Origin: Zygnema cylindricum
Taxonomy: Eukaryota; Streptophyta; Zygnematophyceae; Zygnematales; Zygnemataceae
Assembly: GCA_037447655.1 (NCBI GenBank)
Contig: JBBHKE010002126.1
Span: forward strand, 1-64,000
DNA length: 64,000 nucleotides
Direction of reading: 5' to 3'
The notes below the pieces were generated by a model. That model did not search any database, was not told the origin of the DNA, and saw only the letters and a list, made by a program, of their open reading frames with translations. Shown here one piece after another: positions 4,652-46,665 of this stretch (its first letter is position 1; each line of letters begins with the position of its first letter). A program made the translations under genes and the position numbers.

Positions 4652-5340
4652 TATTGAAAAGTAAGCTTTAGTAAGTCTTAGAAATTTGAGTCTAGGACTT
4701 AGAATATTTTTGGAATACCAACTGTTCAATATTGACCGAATTTAGTGTGGATTTTTTGTAGTATCTACACGAATTGATATCTTTAAGTTAATTAGTGTGT
4801 AGGGCCGCCAATGAATGTAGACGTGATAAGAATCACCCGGATTTTTAGGGTATAGATATTGTTAGTGGACAATTCTGGTCCAAACACTTAGATTTTTGTT
4901 AGTACAGTGTCTGGTGAACCATGTACATACGTTTTAGATGTTTTCTAGATATTTTAGATGTTTTTAGATCTTTTGAGTATTTAGTTCAATTAGGATTGAT
5001 CATTTCAATACAGAATGTACATTCTACACAAGAATTAAGGAAATGAGAGCACTGAGTGCAGTTTAAGGTGTTTTATGCTCTATTGTCTATAATTTGCTTG
5101 TAGTACATGTTTGTTTGGTTGAAATACCTCTTTCGTTTGGAGTTACATATCTTACACTATAGATCTAGTCTTTTAGGCATTTCTCTTTGGGTTTGCTTCC
5201 GCTAACATGTCTGATAATGGCTCAGCTCCTATTGCAAGTGCTCCTATTAGCCCTAGTGCTCCACCTGCTCCTGCTGGTGCAAGTGTGGCTCCTAGTGGGA
5301 GTGGATCACAGCCGAGTCTTAATGCCCATGACCTTCAACA
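4652..5340 (+). mobile_element. Solo LTR, Copia family A
   Basis: A 689-bp LTR that starts TATTGAAAAG and ends CTTCAACA. It is flanked by the 5-bp target-site duplication TAATT (4647-4651 and 5341-5345), which is itself satellite sequence. The ends form an imperfect inverted repeat (TATTGAA/TTCAACA), with TA in place of the usual TG. No internal region is present, so it is a solo LTR left by LTR-LTR recombination. An ATG at 5207 opens the first 44 codons of gag (Ser/Pro/Ala-rich), which run in frame to the LTR end. It is nearly identical to the copies at 35363 and 39536. Confidence 0.93.
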
Positions 5341-8300
5341 TAATTTAGGTAACAACTTTTGTTATCGCTAACTGTTTGTGTAATTTAGATAACAATTCAT
5401 GTTATCGCTAACTTTTTCTGTAATTTATGTAACTATTCTTCTTATCACTAACTCTTTGTGTAATTTAGGTAACAAATTTTGTTAGCACTAACAGTTTGTG
5501 TAAGTTAGAAAACAATTTTTGTTATCGCTACTTTTTCTGTAATTTATGTAACAATTCTTGTTTTCACAAACTTTTTGTGTAATTTAGGTAACAATTCTTG
5601 TTAGCGCTAAGAACTTGTGTAAGTTAGATAAAAATTCTTGTTATCATTAACAACTTGTGTAATTTAGGTGAAAAATCTTGTAATCGCCAACAGTTTGTGT
5701 AATTTAGGTAACTATTCTTGTTATCGCTAATTGTTTGTTTATTTTAGGTAACAATTCCTGTTATTGGTAACACTTTGTTTAACTAAGATAACATTTTGTG
5801 TTAGCGCTAACAGTTTGTGTAATTAAGATTACAGTTCCTGTTATCGCTTAATCTTTCTGAAATTTAGGTAACAATTCTTGTTATCACTAACTGTTTGTGT
5901 AATTTAGGTAACAATTATTGTTAGCGCTAATAGTTTGTGTAATCTACGTAACAATTCTTTTTATTGCTAACTTTTTATGTAATTAAAGCTAACAATTCCT
6001 GTTATCTCTAACTATTTGTGAAATTTAGGTAACAGTTCTTATTATTGCTAACAGTTTGTGTTATTCAGGTTAAATTCTTGTTATCGCTAATTGTTTCTGT
6101 AATTTAGGTAACAATTCTTGTTATTGCTAATTGTTTGTGTAATTTAGGTAACAATTAATGTTATTACTAACAGTTTGTGTAAGTTGGATAACAATTCTTG
6201 TTATCGCTAACTGTTTGTGTAATTTAGGTAACATTTCTTGTAAGCACTAACAGTTTGTGTAATTTAGGTGACAAATCTTGTTATCGCTAACAGTTTGTGT
6301 ATTCTAGATATCGATTAATGTTATCGCTAACTGTTTGTGTAATTTACGTAACAATTTTTGTTAAGGCTAAGAGTTTGTGCTATTAAGGTAACAATTCTTG
6401 TTATTGCTAACAGTTTTTATAATTTAGGTAACAATTGATGTTATCGCTAACTGTTTGTGTTAATTAGGTAACGATATTTGTTAACGCTAATTGTTTGTGT
6501 AATTCAGGTAACAATTGTGTTATCGCTAGCAGTTTGTGTAAGTTAGATAAAAATTCTTGTTATCGTTAACAACTTGTGTAATTTAAGTGAAAAATCTTGT
6601 AATTGCTAACTTTTTTGTAATTTAGGTAACAATTTCTGTTATCTCTAAGTGTTTGTGTAATTTAGGTAACAATTTCTGTTATTGGTAATAGTTTGTGTAA
6701 GTAAGATAACATTTCGTGTTAGCGCTAACGGTTTGTGTAATATAGGTATTAATTCTTGTTATCGCTAAATATTTGTGTATTTTAGGTAACGATTCTTGTT
6801 CTCGCTTACTAATTGTGTAATTTAGGTAACAATTCTACTTATCGCTAACAGATTGTGTAAGTTAGGTAACGAATTTGTTAGCTTTAAAAGTTTGAGTAAG
6901 TTAGATAACAATTCTTGTTAGCGCTAACTGTTTGTGTAATTTAGGTAACAGTTCTTGTTATCGCTAACTGATTCTGTAATTTAGGTAACAATTCTTGTTA
7001 TTGCAAATTTTTTATGTAATTTAGGTAACAATTCTTGTTATTGCTACTTGTTTCAGTAATTTAGGTAACAATTATTGTTATCGCTAATAGTTTGTGTAAT
7101 TTAGGCATCAATTCTTGTTATCGCTAAAAGTTTGTGTAATTTAGATTACAATTCTAGTTATCGCTAACAGTTTGTGTAATTTAGATAATAATTTCTATTA
7201 TCGCTAAATGTTTGTGTAATTGAGGTAACAATTCATGTTATCGCTATTGTTTGTGTTAGTTAGGTAACCATTCTTGTTAGCTCTATCAGTGTGTGTAAAT
7301 TAGAAAACAATTCTTGTTATCGCTAATTGTTTAGGTAAGTTAGAAAACCATTATTGTTATCGCTAATAGTTTGTGTAATTTAGGTAACAATCCTTGTTAT
7401 CGATAACAGTTTGTGTAAGTTAGGTAACCATTCTTGTTAGCGCTAACCGTTTGTGTGAGTTAGATAACACTTTTTGTTATCTCTAACTATTTTTGTAATT
7501 AGGTCACAATTTTTGTTATTGCCGACTGTTTGTGTAATTTAGGAAACAATTCTTGTTATCGCTAACTGTTTTTGTAAGTTAGATAACAATTCTTGTTATT
7601 GCTAACTGTTTGTGTAATTTAGGTATTAATTCGTGTTATCGCTAACTGTTTCTGTAATTTAGGTAACAATTCTTGTTATCGCTAATTGTTTGTGTATTTC
7701 AGGTGATAATTTTTGTTATGGCTAATTGTTTGTGTAATTTAGGTAACAAATCTTGTTATTGCTAACAGTTTGTGTAACTTAGGTAACCATTCTTGTTAGC
7801 TCTAACAGTGTGTGTAATTTAGGTAACAATTCCTGTTATCGCTAACAGTATTTGTAAGTTAGATAACAATTAATGTTAACGCAAAAAGGTTGTGTAGTTT
7901 GAATTATAATTCCTATTAACCCTATGTTTGTGTAATTTAGGTAAAAATTCCTGTTATCGCTAACTGTTTGTGTAATTAAGGCACCATTCCCTATTATCGC
8001 TAAATGTTTGTGAAATTTAGTTAACAACAATTGTTTTTATCGCTAATTGTTTGTGTAATTTAGGTAACAATTCTTGATATCGATATATGTTTGTGTAAGT
8101 TAGATAACAATTCTTGTTATCGCTAACAGTTTGTGTAAGTTAGATAACAATTTTTGTTGTTGCTAAATGTTTGTGTAATTTAGGTAACAATTCCTGTTAG
8201 CGCTAACAGTTTGTGTAATTTAGATTAAAATTCTTGTTATCACTAATAGTTTGTGTAATTTATATAACAATTCTTGTTAGCGCTAAATGTTTGTGTAATT

Positions 8301-16294: not shown

Positions 16295-18079
16295 TAATTT
16301 AGGTAAAATTTTTGTTATCGCTAATTGTTCGTTGGTTTAGGTAACAATTCTTGTTATCCCTAACAATTTGTGTAAGTTAGATAAACATTCTTGTTATCGC
16401 TAACAGTTTGTATAATTTAGGTAACATTTCTTGTTATTGCTAACTGTTTCTGTAATTTAGATAACAATTCCTGTTATCACTAACAGTTTGTGTACTTTAG
16501 GTAACAATTCTTGTTATCGCTAACTATTTCTGTAATTTAGGTAACAATTCTTGTTATCACTAACAGTTTGTGTATTTTAGATATTAATTCATGTTATTGC
16601 TAACTGTTTGTGTAATTTAGGTAACAATTCTTGTTATGGCTAACAGTTTTTGCAATTAAGGTAACAATTCTTCTAATTGCTAACAATTTCTGTAATTTAG
16701 GTAACAATTCATGTAATTTTTAACTATTTCTATAATTTAGGTAACAATTCTTGTTATCGCTAACTGTTTATGTAATTTAGGTAACAAAAATGTTGTTAGC
16801 GCTAACAGTTTGTGTAAGTTCGATAACAATTCTTGTTATCGCTAACTGTTTGTGTAATTAAGGTAACAGTTTTTGTTATCGCTAGAAGTTTTTGTATTTG
16901 AGGTAACACTTCTTGTTATTGCTAATTGTTTTTGTATATTAGGTAACAATTCCTGTTATCGCTAACAGTTTGTAGAAGTTAGATAACAATTCTTGTTATC
17001 GCTAACAGTTTGTGTAATTTAGGTAACAATTTTTGTTATCGCTAATTGTTTCTGTAATTTAGGTAACAATTCTTGTTATCGCTAATTTTTTGTGTAATTT
17101 AGGTAACAATTATTGTTATCACTAACAATTTGTGTATGTTATATAACAATTAATGTTAGAGCTAACTGTTTTTTTAACTGAGGTTACAATTCCTGTTATC
17201 GCTAACAGTTTGTGTAATTTAGATAATAATTCTTCTTAGCGCTAAAAGTTTATGTAATCTACATAACAATTATTGTTATCGCTAACTGTTTCTATAATTT
17301 AGGATACAATTCTTGTTATGGCTAATAGTTTGTGTAATTTAGGAAATAATTCCTCTTATCGCTTACTGTTTGTGTAATTTAGGTAACAATTCTTGTTATC
17401 TCTTACTATTTGTGTAATTAACAAAACAATTCTTGTTATCGCTAATTGTTTGTGTAATTTAGGTAACAATTCTTGTTATCGCTAACACTTTGTGTAATTT
17501 AGGTAACAATTCTTGTTAGCGCTAACTGTTTGTGTAATTTAGGTAACAATTCTTGTTATCACTAACAGTTTGTGTATTTTAGATATCAATTCATGTTATT
17601 GCTAACTGTTTGTGTAATTTAGGTAACAATTCTTGTTATGGCTAACAGTTTTTGCAATTAAGGTAAGAATTCTTCTAATTGCTAACAATTTCTGTAATTA
17701 AGGTAACAATTCATGTTATTTTTTACTATTTCTATAATTTAGGTATTAATTCTTGTTATCGCTAACAGTTTGTGTAATTTAGGTAACAATTCTTGTTATC
17801 GCTAATTGTTTGTGTAATTTAGGTAACAATTCTTCTTATCACTAACAATTTGTGTATGTTACATAACAATTAATGTTAGCGCTAACAATTTTTTTAACTG
17901 AGGTTAGAATTCCTGTTATTGCTAACAGTTTGTGTAATTTAGATAATAATTTTTCTTAGCGCTAAAAGTTTTTGTAATTTAGATTACAATTCCTATTATG
18001 CTGACTGTTTCTATAATTTAGGATACAATTCTTGTTATGGCTAATAGTTTGTGTAATTTAGGATACAATTCTTGTTATC
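16295..18079 (+). repeat. 40-bp satellite array, plus orientation (block 5)
   Basis: About 45 units. A group of five or six variant units (tttgcaattaagg, then ttctaattgctaac, then catgtaattttta/catgttatttttt, then tctataatttagg) starts near 16641 and recurs near 17643, about 25 units later. It is also seen near 13601, exactly 76 periods to the left. The stretch 17652-17982 reappears reversed in the corrupted block that follows. Confidence 0.95.
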
Positions 18080-18477
18080 GATTTAATGTTTTTGAAAATC
18101 GCGATTCTTTTTAATAATAGATTTAATGTGTTTGACAATCGTTATTGTCCTTAAGATTGGAGTCAATTTTTTTAACAATCGCGATTGTAATTAACAATAC
18201 ATTGTATGTGTTTAACAATCACTATTCTTCTTAACAATGGATTTAATGTGTTTGTTAATCGCTATTGTTCTTAACAATGGATTTAATGTGTTTGACAATC
18301 GCTATTGTTCTTAATTATGGATTTAATATCTTTATCATTTTTTATTGTACTTAACAATGGAATTAATGTCTTTAACAATCGTTAATCTTCTTAAGAATGG
18401 AATTAACGTTNNNNNNNNNNAGAGTAAAGGAATTAAGAACACATCTTACATGTAAGACATAACTTTACTAGTTAGGA
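18080..18477. other. Reversed (not complemented) block around an assembly gap
   Basis: 18080-18410 reads as the exact character reversal of 17652-17982: base x equals base 36062-x for 331 of 331 positions, with no complementing. On the far side of the gap, 18421-18477 is the reversal of 57 bases of the family-A LTR, equivalent to 4992-5048. Of these, 18421-18456 mirror 18478-18513. If the whole 398-base block is flipped as text, it reads LTR piece, ten N, satellite piece. DNA cannot normally be copied this way, so I treat it as an assembly or gap-filling error and not as a second satellite. Confidence 0.93.
18411..18420. other. Sequence gap (10 N)
   Basis: Ten unresolved bases. The two flanks are satellite and LTR, both in reversed text order. 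The gap length is probably a placeholder. Confidence 1.
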
Positions 18478-18805
18478 GAATGTACATTCTACACAAGAAT
18501 TAAGGAAATGAGAGCACTGAGTGCAGTTTAAGGTGTTTATTGCTCTATTGTCTATAATTTGCTTGTAGTACATGTTTGTTTGGTTGAAATACCTCTTTCG
18601 TTTGGAGTTACATATCTTACACTATAGATCTAGTCTTTTAGGCATTTCTCTTTGGGTTTGCTTTCGCTAACATGTCTGATAATGGCTCAGCTCATATTGC
18701 AAGTGCTCCTATTAGCCCTAGTGCTCCACCTACTCCTGCTAGTGCAAGTGTCGCTCTTAGTGGGAGTGGATCACAGCCGAGTCTTAATGCCCATGACCTA
18801 CAACA
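18478..18805 (+). mobile_element. Partial LTR, Copia family A (3' portion)
   Basis: Matches the family-A LTR from gaatgtacattc to its CA end (ctacaaca at 18805), followed by satellite. The left part of the LTR is missing because of the corrupted gap next to it. The gag ATG at 18671 and the Ser/Ala/Pro-rich gag N-terminus are present up to the LTR end. Whether this was a solo LTR or part of a longer element cannot be told from this assembly. Confidence 0.85.
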
Positions 18806-21185: not shown

Positions 21186-21875
21186 CATTGAAAAATAAGC
21201 TTTAGTAAGCCTTAGAAATTTGAGTCTAGAACTTATAATATTTTTGGAATACCAACTGTTCAATATTGACCAAATTTAGTGTGGATTTTTTGTAGTATCT
21301 ACACGAATTGATATCTTTAAGTTAATTAGTGTGTAGGGCCGCCAATAAATGTAGACGTGATAAGAATCACCCGGATTTTTAGGGTATAGATATTGTTAGT
21401 GGACAATTCTGGTCCAAACACTTAGATTTTTGTTAGTACAGTGTCTGGTGAACCATGTACATACGTTTTAGATGTTTTCTAGATATTTTAGATGTTTTTT
21501 AGATCTTTTGAGTATTTAGTTCAATTAGGATTGATCATTTCAATACAGAATGTACATTCTACACAAGAGTTAAGGAAATGAGAGCACTGAGTGCAGTTTA
21601 AGGTGTTTTATGCTCTATTGTCTCTAATTTGCTTGTAGTACATGTTTGTTTGGTTGAAAGACCTCTTTCTTTGGGAGTAACATATCTTATAATATAGATC
21701 TAGTCTTTTAGGCATTTCTCTTTGGGTTTGCTTCCGCTAATATATTTGATAATGGCTCAGCTCCTATTGCAAGTGCTCCTATTAGCCCTAGTGCTCCACC
21801 TGCTCCTGCTGGTGCAAGTGTGACTCATAGTGGGAGTGGATCACAGCCGAGTCTAAATGCCCATGACCTTCAACA
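21186..21875 (+). repeat. 5' LTR of family-A element
   Basis: Starts CATTGAAAAAT, where other copies have TATTGAAAAG, and ends CTTCAACA directly before the primer-binding site. The ATG that begins gag in other copies is ATA at 21742-21744. LTR roles (promoter, R region and integrase end sequences) are family knowledge; I see no strong TATA box in this LTR. Confidence 0.9.
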
Positions 21876-22686
21876 GGTTATGGGCCCATCGCCCAAATTG
21901 CCTATTTTTGACGGAACTGACTACTTATACTGAGAAGATATGTTGAGCTCATATTTCGAGGAGAGGGATTTGTCACCCATTCTGGAAGGAACAGCGGATG
22001 TGACTGCGCCGGATTGGAGAACGAAGAATCTCCATTGCCTCAACGTCTTGAAGCAGTCTATGACAAAAGATTTGGTAATGTCGTATCTTGAGATGAAGAA
22101 AGCATCTGATGTTTGCTTTAGTGTACGTGCTGTGTATGTTCAGCTAGATGTTACCGTCTAGACTAACATAGCCACTCAGATTTCTGAATTTAAGTATTCT
22201 GGAGGTAGTATGTCAGATCATTGTCATGCTATGAAAAGGTTGTTTCTTCAGAGTACTAGTGCAGGTGGGGACTTTTCACCACCTCAGCAAGCTATGTTGT
22301 TGATGAGAACTTTGCCCGATGAATATAAGGGAGCCATTTATAGGCTTAGGGCTATTCCACAACGTCAATGGAACATAGCATTAGCAATTCAACTTATTTT
22401 GAGTGAAGAAGCTAACCAAATGTCACAAAGAGGTAGTAGTAAGTCTGTTCAGGCACTAGCTAACCAGTTTTCAGACTCTAAGATTGGCAATGGCAGTGGC
22501 AGAGGTAGTGGTCCTAGAAAGACACCTTTGACATGCTATTATTGTGATGAAAAAGGCCATGTTTTCAGATTGTGTAATGCCTACAAGAGAGCGAAAGCTA
22601 CAGGAAATTTTCGCTATGGTTGGGACGAAAGCCGGGTTCCTTCTCAATCTGGTGGACGACCAACTTCTTTATTCAACGAAATATAG
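21742..22686 (+). pseudogene. Copia gag remnant (nucleocapsid with CCHC zinc knuckle)
   Basis: Gag builds the virus-like particle and binds element RNA. The frame runs from the lost start (ATA at 21742) through the LTR/internal boundary. In-frame stops lie at 21931 (TGA, Trp expected from the family-B sequence at the matching site) and 22159 (TAG, where the minus-strand copy has CAG). The part from 22210 is open. A zinc knuckle CYYCDEKGHVFRLC (CX2CX4HX4C) lies near 22537-22578. The frame ends with TAG at 22684-22686, and the protease frame follows in the same register. The same TAG occurs in the minus-strand copy (34851-34853), so this stop is shared by the family while the two upstream stops are private. 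Confidence 0.88.
21876..21888 (+). promoter_or_regulatory. Primer-binding site, half initiator tRNA-Met type
   Basis: GGTTATGGGCCCA begins right after the LTR end. It is the reverse complement of TGGGCCCATAACC, the anticodon stem-loop of eukaryotic initiator tRNA-Met. That is the primer type of Drosophila copia, which uses a cleaved 5' tRNA half. The usual plant site complementary to the tRNA 3' end (TGGTATCAGAGC) is absent. The site lies inside the gag frame and encodes Val-Met-Gly-Pro. Confidence 0.85.
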
Positions 22687-23913
22687 GAGGAGGATGTGAG
22701 CAGCTATCCCATCAAAAGCGAAAAGAAATACTTTGCGATGGCACAAGCAACGGAAGGCGTGGAGGAAGACGAATGGATAATGGACTCCGGTACATCTGCC
22801 CACATGTGCCGCAATCGCCATCTATATGAGAGTGTTCAATATATTTCACCCATCAAAATTTATTTTAGTGATGATACCTTTGTTGAGTCAAAAGCAAAGG
22901 GGAGGGTGTCACTTATGTTGAACGTAGAGGGAAAACCTGTGAAAAGGGTTTTGGAAGATGTGTTGCATGTCCCAGCTTTTAAAAGAAACTTTTTCTCTAC
23001 GTCAGTGGTAGAAAAGAAAGGTTTTAAAACTATATCTGAGAATGGAAAGAAAAGAGTGAGTAAGAATGGGAAAATAGTTGTAGAAGGATTTGCTGGAGGA
23101 AACAATTTGTATCGGTTGAGTCTTGCAAATGATAATGACAATGATGTTATGTACTCAAGTGTAATCAGTGATTGTGATTTATGGCATAAACGTTTAGGAC
23201 ATGTGAATTATGATAGATTAGAAAAGATGGTAAATCAAAAAATGGTGGAAGGTGTAAAAACTAGTCAAAAACGAGCATCAAATGTATTTGATGGTTGTGC
23301 AATGGGAAAAATTAATAAGTTGCCTTTTCCTTTGCAAACTGATCATAGAAGTAGCAGGGTGTTAGAACTAATTTATTCAGATGTATGGGGGCCATCTAGG
23401 TATCCATCTGTGGGAGGTACTAAGTTTATGCTTACCTTTACTGATTACTATAGTAGATTTACTTCAGTTTATTTTTTAAAGAGTAAGGATGAAGTTTTTT
23501 CAAAATTTATGGAGTATAAGGCTTGGGTTGAAAATCTGCATGAGAGAAAGATAGGGGGATTCAGATCTGATAATGGAGGGGAGTACATTTCTAATGAATT
23601 TGCAGAATTCCTAAAATTGCATAGAATCTCATGTCAGCTAACCGTTCCCTATTCTCCGGAACAAAATGGTGTTTCACAGAGGATGAATAGGACCATATCA
23701 GAGTGTGCTAGGAGAATGATGGGTGATATGGACATAGATTACAAGTTTTGGGCAGAGGCCATAAATTGTGGAGCTTATGTGAGAAACAGGCTAGAAACAA
23801 GGGCAGTAAAGGATAAACCACCTTACGAAATGTGGACAGGACAAAAACCAGATGTAAGTTACTTCAAAGTTTTTGGAAGTAAGATATTTATGCTAGATAA
23901 TGATCCACAATAA
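22687..23913 (+). pseudogene. Copia protease-integrase remnant
   Basis: The frame continues in register after the TAG at 22684. The aspartic protease motif Asp-Ser-Gly is intact at 22783-22791. A GAG-pre-integrase/zinc-binding region follows (WHKRLGHVN); in the final Cys pair the first Cys is Phe (23287-23289), while the minus-strand copy keeps Cys. The integrase core shows SDVWGP and SDNGGEY, carrying the first two catalytic Asp. The catalytic Glu is Gln at 23677-23679 (NGVSQRMNR). The frame ends at a TAA at 23911-23913, but homology continues. With the Glu lost, integrase should be inactive. Confidence 0.9.
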
Positions 23914-24642
23914 TGGAAAATAGAGCCAAAAGGCATACCAGGCATATTTTTAGGGTATGATGATCATGCCAAAGGTTATAAAGTTTATGACATTAGGAGA
24001 AATATAGTTGTGGTAGCCAAAAAATATCATAGTGAAGGATGAGGGAAAAGGAATAGATGTATTTAGTCAGCATACAGATGAAAAGAAAGATAGAAGTGTT
24101 GATTATATCTTTTTAGAGGAAAATCCTATGTTTTTCAAGAAAAATGTAGAAAATGCATCTAGTTTAACTCAAAATGACTTGGAATCATCTTCTCCACGAG
24201 AAACAGGAAGTCTTATGCCTGAAAGAGTTGTAGAATCTCCTCTACCTCAAGCCGAAACTGAATTACAAGAGGAATCACATGTATCGAGGAAGAGGAACTA
24301 ACCATCTATACCAGCGACAGAATTTCCAGGTGGAGTTAGGCGAAGTGCACGACTGAGGGGAGAAAGTGCAGCCTTTGCTCATTCTGCACACGTAGAAGAG
24401 CCTTTAACATTGAAAGAAGCTTTTTCGAGTAATGAAAGGGAACATTGGGTGGAAGCCGTCAATGAGGAAATGAAGTCCATCATGGAGGCCCAAACATGGG
24501 ATCTGGTGAAACTTCCTCCTGTAAGAAAGGCTATTGGAAGTAAATGGGTGTTTAAATTAAAATTGAACCCAGATAATACCATAGAAAAGGAATAAGGCTC
24601 GCTTGGTTGCTAAGGGATATAATCAAAAGGAGGGGATAGATT
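23914..24642 (+). pseudogene. Broken link region between integrase and reverse transcriptase
   Basis: Homology to the integrase C-terminal region (GYDDHAKGYKVYD) continues past the TAA at 23911. The frame then shifts near the A-run around 24020. The next open part (from 24032) is acidic and Ser-rich, as is usual between the two domains. It meets a TAA at 24299-24301, continues in the same frame into the start of reverse transcriptase (WVFKLKLNPDNT), and is broken again by a frameshift before the TAA at 24593-24595. A further shift lies at the A-run near 24645. Compare the family-B element, where the upstream part of this region is open to 45156. Confidence 0.8.
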
Positions 24643-25983
24643 ATGAAAAAAACTTTTTCACCGGTTGTAAGGTTTCCATCTGTCCGCATCTTACTTACAT
24701 TAGCTGCCATAAAGGATTTTGACATCCACCAAATGGATGTCAAAACTGCATTTTTGCATGGTGATTTAGATGAGGTCATCTATATGAAGCAACTAGAGGG
24801 TTATGAGGAAGCAGGAAAAGAAAATCTTGTTTGCAAACTTTTAAAATCATTCTATGGCCTAAAACAGGCCCCTAGGCAGTCGAACCGAAAGTTAGATGAG
24901 TTCTTGACAGGATTAGGGTTTACTAGAATTAGCTCAGATCATTCAGTATATGTGATGTGTGGTGATAATCCTGATGAGGTGATATTCATTGTTGTGTATG
25001 TTGATGATTTGCTGCTAATAAGTAGGAATAAAAAAAGAATTGCTAGAGTAAAATATGCTCATAATTCACAATTTGAAATGAAGGATTTGGGTGAGGCTAA
25101 ATACATTCTTAGAATACAATTTGAAAGAGATAGAGAAAAAAAAATCATTAGGCTAACTCAAAAAGAAGCGATAGGAAACATGTTGGAAAAATTTGGCTTG
25201 GCTGATGCCAAAGGTTGTGCAACTTTTATGGAGTATAAGCAAAAACTTGAAGGAATGGAGCATGAGTTTGGAGTCATAATAGATGAGGAACTCAGTGCAG
25301 AAGAGCAAAAATTTATGTCCCAAGTACCCTACAGACAAGTAGTAGGAAGTCTAATTTACTTCATGAATTGTACTAGGCCCGATATAGCTGCTGCTGTAGG
25401 TGTATTGAGCAGATGTCTGCAAAATCCACGAAAGAGAGATTGGGAGGCTGCAAAAAGGGTGTTAAGGTATCTTGTTGGTATTAGAAATCTTTGGCTTACA
25501 TTGGGAGGGGACAAGGTTAGCATTAATACTTGGAGTGATGCTAGCTATCGTGATGTGCCTAGAAGGAAGTCTACAACTAGGTATGTCATTCAGATTGGAA
25601 GTGGTACTTGTAGTTGGAGTAGTAAACTTCAAAAGGTCACGGCTCAATCTACGATGGAAGCTGAATACATGGCTACGAGCGCAGCCTTGAAAGAGTTGCT
25701 ATGGATGAAGGCATTTCTTCAAAAATTGGGTTTTAGGCAACACGGGACAGAAATAATGTGGTGCGACAATCAAGCAGCCATTTCTGTGGCTACAAACCCA
25801 AGTCACCATTTTAAGAGTAAACATATGGACATTCAGCTACATTTGGTACGTGAGAAAGTCTTTGCAAAAGTAGTAAAACTTTGTTATTTGCCTGATGAGA
25901 AAATGGTTGCGGACATGTTGACAAAAGCCCTTTCCACTCCTAAATTGGAGTACTGCAGAAATGCATGTGGTCTAAGTGAGTAA
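24643..25983 (+). pseudogene. Copia reverse transcriptase-RNase H remnant
   Basis: An open frame of 446 codons with no stop, although upstream breaks detach it from gag-pol. Reverse transcriptase motifs are visible: HQMDVKTAFLHGDL, the YGLKQAPRQ block (followed by Ser-Asn where family B has Trp-Asn) and the catalytic YVDD at 24997-25008. The RNase H part has WSDASY, STMEAEY and WCDNQAAI and ends with the KHMDIQLHLVREK block typical of Copia. Two Gly near the RNase H start are Arg here compared with family B. The polyprotein ends at 25983, just before the polypurine tract. The first Met is only the first in this open part, not a real start. Confidence 0.9.
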
Positions 25984-33816: not shown

Positions 33817-34055
33817 TGTAGAAGGTCATGGGCATTAAGACTTGGCTGTGATCCACTCCCACTAGGAGTCACACTTGCACCAGCAGGAGCAAGTGGAGCA
33901 CTAGGGCTAATAGGAGCACTTGCAATAGGAGCTAAGCTATTATCAGACATGTTAGCTGAAGCAAACCCAAAGAGAAATGCCTAGAAGACTAGATCTATAG
34001 TGTAAGATATGTAACTCCAAACGAAAGAGGTATTTCAACCAAACAAACATGTACT
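33817..34055 (-). repeat. 3' portion of family-A LTR (minus strand)
   Basis: Matches the last 239 bp of the LTR, including the gag start region (ATG on the minus strand, complement at 33949-33951). It ends at the LTR's CA terminus next to satellite. Confidence 0.88.
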
Positions 34056-34850
34056 CTTTAAAAAATAAACTATAGTAAATCTACTATAGTCATCAGTAAA
34101 GGTAAGCATAAACTTAGCACCTCCCACAGATGGATACCTAGATGGCCCCCATACATCTGAATAAATTAGTTCTAGCACCCTGCTACTTTTATGATCAGTT
34201 TGCAAAGGGAAAGGCAACTTATGAATTTTTCCCATTGCACAACGATCACATATATTTGATGCTGGTTTTTGACAAATTTTTACACCTTCCACCATTTTTT
34301 GATTTACCATCTTTTCTAATCTATCATAATTCACATGTCCTAAACGTTTATGCCATAAATCACAATCACTGATTACACTTGAGTACATAACATCATTATC
34401 ATTATCATTTGCAAGACTCAACCGATACAAATTGTTTCCTCCAGCAAATCCCTCTGCAACTATTTTCCCATTCTTACTCACTGTTTTCTTTCCATTCTCA
34501 GATATAGTTTTAAAACCTTTCTTTTCTACCACTGACGTAGAGAAAAAGTTTCTTTTAAAAGCTGGGACATGCAACACATCTTCCAAAACCCTTTTCACAG
34601 ATTTTCCCTCTACGTTCAACATAAGTGACACCCTCCCCTTTGCTTTTGACTCAACAAAGGTATCATCACTAAAATAAATTTTGATGGGTGAAATAGATTG
34701 AATACTCTCATATAGATGGCGATTGCGGCACATGTGGGCAGATGCACCGGAGTCCATTATCCATTCGTCTTCCTCCACGCCTTCCGTTGCTTGTGCCATC
34801 GCAAAGTATTTCTTTTCGCTGTTGATGGGATAGCTGCTCACATCCTCCTC
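34056..34850 (-). pseudogene. Copia protease-integrase fragment (minus strand)
   Basis: The frame is in register after a TAG (34851-34853) that closes gag. The protease Asp-Ser-Gly is present in the WIMDSGASAHMC block. The zinc-binding region keeps both Cys (ICDRCAMGK), unlike the plus-strand element. The integrase core shows SDVWGP and FTDDYSRF and stops after FLKS, where the sequence joins the LTR fragment. The catalytic Glu and everything downstream are deleted. What remains is less damaged than the same region of the full-length element. Confidence 0.88.
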
Positions 34851-35362
34851 CTATAGTTCGTTGAATAGAGAAGTTGGCCGTCCACCAGATTGAGAAGGAA
34901 CCCGGCTTTCGTCCCAACCAGAGCAAAAATTTCCTGTAGCTTTCGCTCTTTTGTAGGCATTACACAATCTGAAAACATGGCCTTTTTCATCACAATAATA
35001 GCATGTCAAAGGTGTTCTTCTAGGACCACTACCTCTGCCACTGCCATTGCCAATCTTAGAGTCTGAAAACTGGTTAGCTATTGCCTGAACAGACTTACTA
35101 CTACCTCTTTGTGACATTTGGTTAGCTTCTTCACTCAAAATAAGTTGAATTGCTAATGCTATGTTCCATTGACATTGTGGAATAGCCCTAAGCCTATCCA
35201 TGGCTCCCTTATATTCGTCGGGCAAAGTTCTCATCAACAACATAGCTTGCTGAGGTGGTGAAAAGTCCCCACCTGCACTTGTACTCTGAAGAAACAACCT
35301 TTTCATAACATGACAATGATCTGACATACTACCTCCAGAATACTTAAATTCAAAAATCTGAG

Positions 35363-35869
35363 TATTGAAAAGTAAGCTTTAGTAAGTCTTAGAAATTTGA
35401 GTCTAGGACTTATAATATTTTTGGAATACCAACTGTTCAATATTGACCAAATTTAGTGTGGATTTTTTGTAGTATCTACACGAATTGATATCTTTAAGTT
35501 AATTAGTGTGTAGGGCCGCCAATGAATGTAGACGTGATAAGAATCACCCGGATTTTTAGGGTATAGATATTGTTAGTGGACAATTCTGGTCCAAACACTT
35601 AGATTTTTGTTAGTACAGTGTCTGGTGAACCATGTACATACGTTTTAGATGTTTTCTAGATATTTTAGATGTTTTTAGATCTTTTGAGTATTTAGTTCAA
35701 TTAGGATTGATCATTTCAATACAGTCACTTCAGCTGCGAACGCACTACCACTGTGCCACCAGCTCGATGTAGAGACTGGCGGGTCCGTACCCTTTTCTTA
35801 CAGGTGGCTCGAATATGGATATTCCATGTTCTACCCCGTATTGGACCGGCTTCACGTGCCAATCCAACA
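35363..35869 (+). mobile_element. Nested chimeric LTR insertion in gag
   Basis: Flanked by the 5-bp duplication CTGAG (35358-35362 and 35870-35874), which matches the uninterrupted gag site in the plus-strand element. It starts as a family-A LTR (TATTGAAAAG, 362 bp to 35724) but then changes into an unrelated 145-bp segment that ends CCAACA. Both ends therefore look like LTR ends, yet the right part is not family A. Confidence 0.75.
35725..35869 (-). other. 145-bp segment with tRNA-like A box (possible SINE or other LTR end)
   Basis: On the minus strand it begins TGTTGGATTGG and ends gcagctgaagtga at the LTR junction. A Pol III A-box-like TGGCACAGTGG (complement of 35748-35758) sits in a tRNA-like context (ggtggcacagtggtagtgc). 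No B box follows, because the segment is cut at the junction; a weak B-box-like motif, ATTCGAGCC, lies on the wrong side. It could be a truncated tRNA-derived SINE or part of another LTR family. GC content is higher than in its surroundings. Confidence 0.4.
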
Positions 35870-39535: not shown

Positions 39536-40224
39536 TGTTGAAGGTCATGGGCATTAAGACTCGGCTGTGATCCACTCCCACTAGGAGCCACACTTGCTCC
39601 AGCAGGAGCAGGTGGAGCACTAGGGCTAATAGGAGCACTTGCAATAGGAGCTGAGCCATTATCAGACATGTTAGCGGAAGCAAACCCAAAGAGAAATGCC
39701 TAAAAGACTAGATCTATAGTGTAAGATATGTAACTCCAAACGAAAGAGGTATTTCAACCAAACAAACATGTACTACAAGCAAATTAGAGACAATAGAGCA
39801 TAAAACACCTTAAACTGCACTCAGTGCTCTCATTTCCTTAATTCTTGTGTAGAATGTACATTCTGTATTGAAATGATCAATCCTAATTGAACTAAATACT
39901 CAAAAGATCTAAAAACATCTAAAATATCTAGAAAACATCTAAAACGTATGTACATGGTTCACCAGACACTCTACTAACAAAAATCTAAGTGTTTGGACCA
40001 GAATTGTCCACTAACAATATCTATACCCTAAAAATCCGGGTGATTCTTATCACGTCTACATTCATTGGCGGCCCTACACACTAATTAACTTAAAGATATC
40101 AATTCGTGTAGATACTACAAAAAATCCACACTAAATTTGGTCAATATTGAACAGTTGGTATTCCAAAAATATTCTAAGTCCTAGACTCAAATTTCTAAGA
40201 CTTACTAAAGCTTACTTTTCAATA
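39536..40224 (-). mobile_element. Solo LTR, Copia family A (minus strand)
   Basis: A complete 689-bp LTR, the same length as the solo at 4652. It is flanked by the duplication TAAAT (39531-39535 and 40225-40229). The gag ATG (complement at 39667-39669) and N-terminal codons run to the LTR end. It is nearly identical to the copies at 4652 and 35363, so these LTRs appear young compared with the full-length family-A element. Confidence 0.93.
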
Positions 40225-42618: not shown

Positions 42619-43420
42619 GGTCACGGGCCCGCCTTCACGAATTCCGCTCTTTGATAGACGTGAATATCTGTATTGGGCAGATTTGGTTAAGTCTTACTTC
42701 AAGCAAGTGAAACTTATTGATGTGTTAAATGGATCATTGGCAGAATCTGATGCCACCTTTGATCAGAAAAATGACCAGGCTTTGCATTTAGTAAAGCTTA
42801 TGATATCAAAATAATTGCATATGACATATATTAATGTTGCAAAGGCATCAGATTTGTGGGATGCATTGAAATCTTCTTATGTTAAAGCTAGTGACCAGCA
42901 TGAGATTATAACTGCTGGTCAAATCTATGAGTATAAGTGCACAGGTGGTAGCATGGTGGAATACACTAATCGGTTTCGAATGTTACTGTAAGAAAATGCA
43001 TGTTCTGGGGGGACTTTCTCCCCTTATCATCAAGCCATGAATTTCTAAAGGGGCTTCCTAATGAATATAAAGGAGCCTCAGATGAAATGAAAAAATTGTC
43101 TAAACCTCTTTGGAATTTGCAAACAGCTATAGAGTTTATCTTGGCAGAAGAGGCTACTCAGACAGTTTTAGGATTTGGAAAACCAGCTGTAGCATTTACG
43201 GCTCAGTTTCAGAGGGAAAATAGATATCAAGGGAATCAGTTTAATCCTCAGTTTGAAAAATGTGTTTATTGGCATACTGATGGTCACTCCTTCAGAGCTT
43301 GTCCTTTGTATATAAAAGCTCTTGAAACAGGTACCTTTCGGAAAGGATGGAGACACCGCGGACCTCTCATTTCCCAAAAACCTCCAAATAAAATTGTTGC
43401 ATTTTCAGCGGAGGATACGG
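42563..43420 (+). pseudogene. Copia gag remnant, family B
   Basis: Begins at the LTR-borne ATG with a Met-Thr-Thr-Ala-Ala and Ser-run N-terminus. After the LTR end the frame reads into the YLYWADLVKSYF region seen in family A (there YLY, then a stop). In-frame stops are at 42812-42814 (TAA) and 42989-42991 (TAA). A frameshift lies close to 43030-43045, after which the frame beginning at 43000 carries the homology (NEYKGASDEMKK). The zinc knuckle at 43261-43302 has its second Cys changed to Trp (43270-43272), which should break zinc binding. There is no stop between gag and protease, unlike family A. The 3' limit given here is approximate. Confidence 0.85.
42619..42631 (+). promoter_or_regulatory. 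Primer-binding site, family B
   Basis: GGTCACGGGCCCG begins right after the LTR. It corresponds to the family-A site GGTTATGGGCCCA with three transitions. Against the initiator tRNA-Met anticodon arm it has ten Watson-Crick pairs, two C-A mismatches and one G-U pair. It lies within the gag frame. Decay or a slightly different primer are both possible. Confidence 0.65.
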
Positions 43421-45159
43421 AATTGGAGAAGAAAAAGACCGAGGAAACGACACCTGATGTGATCTGTTTTCCAAAAACTGATGACAAAGAGTTCTTTGCT
43501 CTCGCCAAACTCGACATGATGGAAGGAGAAAAGGACCTCGGATGGATAATGGATTCCGCCAGCTCTTCACACATGTGCTGGAACAAGTCTTGGTTTAAGG
43601 AGATGTCTTCTATTCTTTTACGTCAGATCTTTTATGCTTGTGGCGATGTTGTTGAATCAAATGCCAAAGGAAACATAGATCTCGATTGTGTGATAGATGG
43701 AAAGGTTGTTAAGAGAACTTTGTTTGATGTCTTGTATGTTCCAAAGTTCAAGAAAAATATGTTTTCTACGTCTGTAGCTGAAAGCAAAGGCTTTGAGGTT
43801 CTCCAGAAAAATGGCAAGAAAATAGTGAGGAAGAATGGAAGAGTAGCTCTAATAGGAACTAGAGGCCCAAACTTTTTGTACCGCATGGACCTGGCTAATA
43901 AAATTGATTTTGCGTACTCCAGTGTCCTATGTGATAATGTTTTGTGGCATAAAAGGCTTGGTCATGTGCATCATGAGAGACTTACTAAGATGATAAACCA
44001 TAATATGATAGAGGGAGTCAAGCGTAGTCAAAAAGAGTCCCATGTTTGTGATGGTTGTGCTCTCGGAAAGCTTCACAAGCTTCCTCTACCACAAGTTTCT
44101 GATCATCGAGCCACAGATCTCCTTGGTATTATTCACTCTAATGTCTTCGCCCCTTCCAAAGTTCCCTCTCTTGGTGGCAGCCGCTTCTTTGTCACCTTTA
44201 CAGACGATTACTCCCGATATAGTTGCCTATACTTGATGAAGGAGAAGGGAGAAGTCTTCACTCACTTTAAGCACTACAAAATCTGGGCGGAGAAACTTCA
44301 CGGCAAATCTATTCTTGCTTTGCGAACGGATAATGGTGGAGAGTATGTATCTCATGCATTTGCTGATTTTTTGAAAGAGAATGCCATCTCTCGTGAATTT
44401 ACTGCTCCGTACACACCGAAACAAAATGGTGTTGCCGAGAGACTTAATCGGACTTTCACTGAATGTGCTCGATCTATGATGGCCGATAAAGGTGTGGATC
44501 CAAAGTTTTGGGGGGAAGTTTTTCATTGTGCTTCCTACATCAGAAATAGAGTGGAAACCCGAGCTGTTAGGGGTAAGACACCTTATGAAGTGTGGACAGG
44601 CAGAAAGCCAAATGTTAGTCATTTTAGAGTTTTTGGTAGCAAATGTTTTATCTTGGATAATCTTCCTAATTGGAAGCTTAGTCCAAAATCTGTACCTGGT
44701 GTCTTTTTAGGCTATGATGATGAATCTGCAGGTTATAGAGTCTATAATCTTCAGAGAGGATGCCTTCAAACAGCTAGGAATATTGAGATTAAAAAAGAAA
44801 GTCAATCTGTTGACGTTTTTAGCATGGATGCAACTAAAAGGAATGAGAAAATACAAGAATATATCATTCTTGAGCAGGTACCTTTTACTCCATCCTCTTC
44901 TACTTCTTCTACCTCTCTCCCAAATGACTCTGGGCCGTCTAATACTCCTTGTGGAGCTGCTCCTTCTGTTGATGCTCCTCCCAATACACGCCCTGTGCGG
45001 CAAGGTAGGGAACCAACAGTTCCCGCGTCATATTTTCCGGGGGGAAGAAGGCAAAGCAGCCACCTTCGAGGCGACCGAGTTGAGAGTGCTTTTTCTGCAA
45101 GCCCAGGGGAGCCGCTTACTATTCATGAAGCTTTTTTTGTTCCTGAAAAGGATCACTAG
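43421..45159 (+). pseudogene. Copia protease-integrase remnant, family B
   Basis: Open in one frame with the gag C-terminus from 43000. The protease site reads Asp-Ser-Ala at 43552-43560 in place of Asp-Ser-Gly. The zinc-binding region is complete (WHKRLGHVHH, then VCDGCALGK). In the integrase core the first catalytic Asp is Asn at 44140-44142 (IHSNVFAP), while RTDNGGEY and NGVAERLNR keep the second Asp and the Glu. A Ser/Thr/Pro-rich linker follows near 44880-45000. The frame stops at TAG 45157-45159, where the family-A copy has Trp in EHWVEA. The 5' limit is approximate. Confidence 0.9.
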
Positions 45160-45887
45160 ATCTCGGCTGCAAAAGACGAGATAAAGTCAATTATGGAAGC
45201 CCAAACTTGGGAACTTGTGGAGCTCCCACCGAACCGGAAAGCTATCGGTTGTAAGTGGGTCTTCAAATTAAAATTGAATCCTGATAATACAATTGAGAGA
45301 TATAAAGCTAGACTGGTTGCTAAGGGATTAGCCAAAAGGAGGGAATTGACAATGAAGAGACCTTCTCTCCTGTGGTTCACTTTCCTACTGTTAGAGTTTT
45401 GCTATCTTTTGCTGCAATAGAGGATATGGAATTGCATCAGATGGATGTTAAAACTGCTTTCTTGCATGGTGATTTGGAGGAAGTAATTTATATGAAGCAG
45501 CCAGAGATGTATGCAGAAAAAGGGAAAGAAAATCTGGTCTATAAATTGTTGAAGTCCCTGTATGGTCTGAAACAGGCTCCGAGACAATGGAACCTAAAAT
45601 TAGATGAGTTTTTAACCAAACTTGGCTTTACCAGGATCAGTTCAGATCACTCAGTCTATGTAATGCAAGGTGATGATGGAGTGATTTATGTGGCAGTTTA
45701 TGTAGATGATTTGCTACTGATTAGCAAATCTATCAATGAGATTAATAAAATAAAATCAGCTTTGAATTCCCAGTTTGAAATGAAAGACTTGGGTGAGGCT
45801 AAGTATATTCTAGGAATTCAAGTAGAAAGAGACAGGAAACAAAAAATTATTTATTTAACTCAAAAGGAAGCAACAAGAACATGTTAG
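45160..45887 (+). pseudogene. Copia reverse transcriptase remnant, family B
   Basis: After the TAG the frame continues unchanged (IMEAQTWELVELPP, WVFKLKLNPDNT) until a frameshift between about 45330 and 45372. The next frame holds HQMDVKTAFLHGDL, YGLKQAPRQWN and the catalytic YVDD at 45699-45710. A second frameshift near 45870-45885 ends this frame at 45887. Both shifts are in the direction expected for loss of one base. Confidence 0.88.
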
Positions 45888-46665
45888 AAAAGTTTGGCAT
45901 GTCGGACGCAAAGGGGAGTGCCACTCCTATGGAATTCAGGCAGAAATTGGAAGGCACGGAAACGGATGGTGGTGTTTTGGTTGATGGTTTCTTAGATTCA
46001 TGGGAGGCAGATTCTATGTCCTCCATTCCTTACAGGCAGATTGTCGGAAGCCTCATTTATTTCATGAATTGTACTCGTCCCGACATCGCAGCAGCGGTTG
46101 GAGCCTTAAGCCGAAGCCTTCAGAATCCAAGGAAATCAGACTATGAGGCAGCAAAGAGAGTTCTTCGTTATCTTGCAGGAACTCAAAATCTTAGACTCTC
46201 TCTCGGTGGAGAGAAAGCGATGCGAGCTACGGAGATATGCCAAGCCGACGCTCCACCACCGGATACATTTTGAAGATCGGAAGTGGAACTTGCTGCTGGA
46301 TGAGCAAACTTCAGAAGGTAACAGCTCAGTCAACCATGGAGGCTGAGTACATGGCTGCCAGCTCGGCAGTTAAAGAGTTACTTTGGGTAAAGTCTCTTCT
46401 CCAAGAGCTTCTCTTTATGCAATCTGGACCACAGATAGTGTGGTGTGATAATCAGGCAGCAATCGCTATTGCATCTAATCCTAGTCATCACTTTAAGAGT
46501 AAGCACATTGATATCAAGCTACACTTTGTAAGAGAAAAGGTGATGGGAAAAGTCTTGAAGTTGAGTTATTTACTGGATGAGCAAATGGTGGCTGATATGA
46601 TGACGAAACCCTTACCTGCTCCCAAATTGAAGTTTTGTAGAGAGGCATGTGGACTAAGAGACTAG
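45881..46665 (+). pseudogene. Copia reverse transcriptase C-terminus and RNase H remnant, family B
   Basis: The frame from 45881 has MLEKFGMSDAKGSATPMEF, SLIYFMNCTRPDIAAA and VLRYLAGTQNL. A small deletion near 46220 then removes the Trp-containing start of RNase H and shifts the frame, so the codons for Ser-Asp-Ala-Ser-Tyr are out of register. The final frame (from 46237) has STMEAEYMAA, WCDNQAAI and KHIDIKLHFVREK and ends at 46663-46665. The Copia C-terminus is therefore complete in sequence but split. Confidence 0.87.

Follow-up and report, generated by a model that had tools for sequence, protein, structure and literature searches.

Mirror repeats of the known kind, those associated with H-DNA, are homopurine-homopyrimidine, and the fold-back or palindromic chimeras that occur in assemblies are reverse complements of their source. 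Text that has been reversed and not complemented is also used on purpose: in the parts of the two papers considered here, HPRT1R serves as synthetic DNA lacking coding information (PMC11006607) and reversed decoys are employed in benchmarks (PMC11099658). The edges of gaps are the working place of gap-closing programs. In those sections of their descriptions that we drew upon, GapFiller (PMC3446322), PBJelly (PMC3504050), LR_Gapcloser (PMC6324547), TGS-GapCloser (PMC7476103) and RFfiller (PMC9575681) fill gaps, partly by extension of the contig edges, and can leave gaps partly closed. Overfilled gaps are described for PBJelly (PMC3504050), and RFfiller (PMC9575681) treats left and right extension separately, with a reverse-complement step. 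They serve here as points of comparison.

The window, by which we mean the whole stretch of 64,000 nucleotides that was analysed (positions 1–64000 of contig C1600), contains a single N run. The second arm of a perfect mirror stops at this run: 17652–17982 and 18080–18410 agree in every letter (331 of 331) when one of them is read backwards, position x corresponding to 36062−x, and the run of identity is maximal. The first-pass annotation had described a perfect 331-base reversal with a 97-bp spacer beside a 10-N gap, and the comparison confirms this, the arm ending at 18411–18420. The features at the gap are collected in Table 1.

Table 1. Features in and around the gap of the window, with the LTR copies used for comparison
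Feature	Position	Strand	Remark
Source arm	17652–17982	+	Ordinary 40-bp satellite, left contig; forward arm of the mirror
Spacer	17983–18079	+	97 bp, genuine satellite
Left-edge piece	18080–18410	.	Text-reversed 17652–17982; DNA of neither strand
N run	18411–18420	.	10 N
Right-edge piece	18421–18477	.	57 text-reversed bases of copia LTR
Right flank	18478–18805	+	3' part of an LTR copy; abrupt start at the equivalent of 5013 in 4655–5342
LTR copy identical to the un-reversed 57-base piece	4992–5048	+	Exact match
Second LTR copy identical to the un-reversed 57-base piece	39828–39884	-	Exact match
688-bp LTR copies in the window	4655–5342, 21189–21875, 39536–40221		

Against the rest of the window, the 331 bases of the block in their written order score 30 and 31 (two strands), and 20 shuffles of the block score 29–42. 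When the block is un-reversed and its source masked, the score rises to 448 (285 of 324 aligned bases), the match being the next higher-order copy of the local satellite. In alignment the source arm is 88% identical to a higher-order copy 719 bp upstream. Its longest exact copies elsewhere in the window, the block included, reach 65 bases in direct orientation and 82 in reverse complement, and the best other match in the genome, among the 40 of 2855 candidates scored, is 88% identical. Since the source arm has no other close copy, the reversed piece is almost certainly derived from 17652–17982 itself. The spacer agrees with 17263–17360 at 88 of 97 aligned bases. Because it is genuine satellite, the left contig must extend to 18079 or beyond, and the portion of flank copied in the backwards piece ends 97 bp inside the contig. 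When the block is masked out, mirror runs in the rest of the 64 kb reach 19 bases at most, and complement runs 17. A triplex-forming mirror repeat (H-DNA) was considered and rejected, as the arms are not homopurine-homopyrimidine; the source arm holds 100 A, 46 G, 148 T and 37 C, that is 44% purine (146/331).

The satellite around the gap has a higher-order structure of its own, in which 17657–18079 repeats 16938–17360 at a distance of 719 bp; their alignment has two small indels and identity at 373 of 422 aligned bases (88%). Its 40-bp unit runs in one orientation in 262–33817 and in the opposite one in 36066–64000, and between the two halves lies a copia-type fragment on the minus strand (34035–35378) with frames similar to those in 22162–23913. 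Exact searches of viral_contigs and genome_contigs with the satellite consensus found no match; 12 letters of it recur in one PMC paper about testing for a bee virus, apparently without any connection. Two Ty1/copia-type elements with broken frames occupy 22162–25983 and 42970–46665, and Pfam identified gag, integrase and reverse transcriptase domains in the four frames scanned. The reverse transcriptase frame at 24640–25983 is 41–46% identical to the best 120 of 4249 relatives, the organisms named there being plants. Elsewhere in the genome PPR repeats are plentiful, with at least 150 matches (150 of 767 candidates scored), and contig C185 carries a cluster of PPR-repeat frames at about 10–99 kb, including one open frame of 2240 aa. 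The reverse transcriptase relatives and the PPR repeats point to a plant or streptophyte alga.

To the right of the N run the reversed text is not satellite. A 688-bp repeat behaves as an LTR, with at least 40 copies at 96–100% identity, some of them in the window and on contigs C274, C1596 and C2459; several copies form pairs at a distance of about 4.8 kb, their scores being equal or nearly so, and those at 4655–5342 and 39536–40221 look like solo LTRs. Read backwards, the 57 bases at 18421–18477 are identical to 4992–5048 (57/57) and match 39828–39884 in reverse complement, which agrees with the earlier reading of this piece as backwards LTR, 36 bases of which mirror the adjacent forward LTR. 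The last 36 bases of the un-reversed piece equal the adjoining right flank (18478–18513). The other 21 come from further upstream in the LTR, and in two longer LTR copies they precede the flank sequence. Correctly oriented, the piece would lengthen the right contig by 21 bases. Judged from its longer relatives, the LTR copy in the right flank would be short of about 358 bp, if it was once whole.

The same annotation had taken the whole 398-base block, N run included, to be reversed as one unit. This does not hold. If the entire block were turned back, the satellite flank would be followed by the LTR piece and the LTR flank preceded by the satellite piece, whereas each gap-edge piece in fact agrees with the flank that it adjoins. 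We therefore conclude that the pieces were reversed each in place and not as a single 398-base unit.

A scan of the assembly for exact reversals next to N runs had been proposed, together with the warning that other joins may be unreliable. We searched the genome (352.8 Mb, 2689 contigs) with the block as written and obtained at least 41 matches (40 of 50 first-look candidates scored), none of them a free-standing copy away from a gap, so that a second 40-bp satellite family can be discarded. All 41 matches were examined, 30 as loci L009–L038 and 11 as short stretches L058–L068, and 41 of 41 adjoin an N run and are reversed text, in keeping with the earlier view that 18080–18410 only seemingly represents a second satellite. 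Two of the loci (L025 and L028) lie on opposite sides of the same gap, which leaves 40 distinct gaps. Besides the window's own, 39 further gaps on many contigs show the same reversal, and the warning about other joins was thus well founded. A single slip or hand edit at the window's gap alone would suit a window holding just one N run; it is refuted by the 39 other gaps, and we give it next to no credence.

The orientation map of these loci shows reversed text starting from the N run and then a switch to ordinary satellite; at a few loci the two are separated by sequence not recognisable as satellite. Both edges are reversed, each matching its own side, also at L011, L014, L025, L032, L066 and L067. 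Two reversed pieces do not read as satellite, namely the left one at L032 (253 bp) and the right one at L066 (70 bp); the pieces at L062 and L067 are satellite-like in part only. Together with the LTR piece of the window, the L032 and L066 pieces show that the reversal is not restricted to satellite. The N run is exactly 10 long at 23 of the 40 gaps, some other runs being cut by the end of the stretch, and this suggests a fixed minimum. We treated N runs as assembly gaps, some of which may be masked rather than true gaps.

For every gap edge we then compared the 40 bases next to the N run with up to 1400 bases of the flank on the same side (less for L058–L068) and recorded the longest exact mirror. 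An anchored mirror of at least 25 bases is present at 39 of 39 right edges in view, which is largely a selected number because the gaps were reached via reversed satellite and mostly through the right edge, and at 8 of 27 left edges in view (40 gaps); the remaining 19 left edges are without reversal. At the right edges the exact mirrors are 28–334 bases long (n = 39), the shortest being those of L018 (28) and L009 (37). Less selected counts come from the side opposite to the one through which a gap was entered. Here, left edges are reversed in 5 of 24 in view for gaps entered through a right-edge match, and right edges in 3 of 3 in view for gaps entered via a left match (L009, L066 and L025/L028; the right edge of L068 is outside the view and hence not counted). 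The reversed pieces occur one per edge, each drawn from its own flank, with a strong bias towards right edges.

None of the 39 right or 27 left edges in view carries an anchored reverse complement of at least 25 bases, so an inverted repeat or simple fold-back, whose arms would be reverse complements, was rejected at every edge in view. A related possibility is that fold-back chimeric reads added the flank to the contig edge a second time in inverted form, the complement being dropped in a later step. The geometry of arm, spacer and arm close to a contig edge would fit such reads, but the absence of any anchored inverted repeat at these edges speaks against them, as do the LTR piece and the pieces with a reversed spacer, which extend beyond the flank. 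A text error would be required in any case, and we judge this origin highly improbable.

As a null sample, 3000 pseudo-edges in 150 kb of gap-free DNA gave no mirror of at least 25 bases, the longest being 14. The mirror-run, shuffle and pseudo-edge controls together rule out chance or low complexity as the source of the reversals. Direct repeats of at least 25 bases are present at 10 right and 7 left edges, but also at 1226 of the 3000 null positions. As direct repeats are so common in the null, we draw nothing from the direct flank copies at the left edges of L022 (278 bases), L015 (141) and L037 (89). Their offsets are 1122, 200 and 160 bases, respectively, and the last two are multiples of the 40-bp unit. 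At L022 (contig C1415) the exact direct repeat of at least 278 bp ends at the gap and may be either a natural duplication or a piece written forwards.

The 150 kb of comparison DNA, chosen regardless of reversal, is free of N runs; it consists of five stretches taken from large contigs, four from C1600 outside the window, and six from C133 and C1334. Among 10,665 windows of 60 bp in this DNA and the window (214 kb in all), 12 read as reversed satellite; all 12 lie within 18081–18400 and none outside it. N runs being rare, the link between reversed text and N runs is not explained by an abundance of gaps.

These counts also bear on the idea that the mirror copies are real DNA, made by an unidentified process that copies a strand in parallel orientation. 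Only the perfection and the recurrence of the mirror speak for it. All 41 matches lie at N runs with none elsewhere in the 214 kb scanned, the pieces favour one side relative to the way in which the assembly file is written, something that a cell has no means of knowing, and the source arm, with its purine content, is not of the homopurine kind. Known polymerases copy antiparallel. We regard parallel copying as practically impossible, and the reversed block is almost certainly an artefact and not a biological feature.

The content of the pieces bears on when the artefact arose. We grouped the 29 right edges of L009–L038 by satellite-orientation scores, the grouping being our own. In nine of the 29, the stretch between the piece and its source is itself reversed satellite, so that these edges, like the LTR piece of the window, hold new sequence plus an overlap. 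In 14 of the 29 (with L029 and L034 mixed), the intervening stretch is forward satellite and the piece copies the interior of the flank, like the satellite piece of the window. Six of the 29 remained ungrouped, among them the window's LTR edge, which is settled by the other LTR copies. New sequence plus overlap is what extension with overlapping reads or k-mers might add, save for the order of the letters. The copies of flank interior (14 of 29 right edges and the left piece of the window) do not take the contig any further, which is not what one expects of an extension step. Had the reversal arisen after assembly, during record conversion, curation or copying, duplicated flank and new overlapping sequence (nine of 29 right edges; the 21 LTR bases) would not be expected, since plain conversion adds neither, and a late origin of this sort seems very unlikely to us.

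We consider a repeated error of an assembly step that adds short pieces to contig edges at gaps very probable, the pieces not being the organism's DNA. The first-pass annotation had likewise proposed a software error, in gap filling or scaffolding, and the 41 of 41 reversed-satellite matches adjoining N runs support it; gap filling would be the faulty step. In this process the program would have taken a piece matching the contig edge and written its letters in reverse order. The piece would sometimes reach past the contig edge, as with the 21 bases of the LTR piece, and sometimes lie wholly inside the flank, as with the satellite piece 97 bp in. Written backwards, its overlap with the contig would probably go unrecognised and untrimmed, and the N run would be left in place. 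A pure reversal could result from a coding slip in which a piece from the minus strand is complemented but not reversed, or one from the plus strand reversed but not complemented. Leftward extension of a right contig presumably requires reverse-complementing there and back, and loss of one half of the operation would give reversed text. The strong bias towards right edges fits this need for reverse-complementing in a contig that is extended leftwards. The eight reversed left edges call for a further assumption, for example a second pass on flipped scaffolds or reads from the minus strand.

Such a fault would be carried over into gap statistics, catalogues of satellites and the annotation of repeats. 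Text written backwards mimics a second satellite family and finds no database match. It also conceals missing sequence, here about 358 bp of LTR (if the copy was whole) behind what is presented as a gap of 10 N. It is conceivable, and to us somewhat less than an even prospect, that a distributed assembly or gap-closing program has an undocumented fault by which contig extensions come out reversed, mostly at right edges, and that other public assemblies are affected. If so, other assemblies would hold up to hundreds of mirror-text bases at partly closed gaps, which, if anyone has come across them, would have been taken for orphan repeats or alien sequence. Any assembly can be tested simply by looking beside N runs for anchored exact reversals of at least 25 bases; in the present genome, 0 of 3000 gap-free positions showed one.

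No report of a reversal fault of this kind was found among the titles and abstract openings surveyed in open-licence PMC papers. The gap-closing programs share with the present case the addition of sequence at contig edges, and differ from it in that pieces written backwards are not described in the sections drawn upon for GapFiller, PBJelly, LR_Gapcloser, TGS-GapCloser and RFfiller. H-DNA shares the two mirror-symmetric arms, but in the present case purines make up 44% of one arm, and the arms occur in association with N runs. In fold-back chimeras, too, a contig edge carries a copy of the flank turned round after a spacer, whereas the reverse-complement test was negative at all edges in view. 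In the text itself there is a likeness with HPRT1R and the benchmark decoys, as far as the parts of those papers considered here describe them: the letters are reversed without complement in the same way, but there by design, and here by accident and within an assembly.
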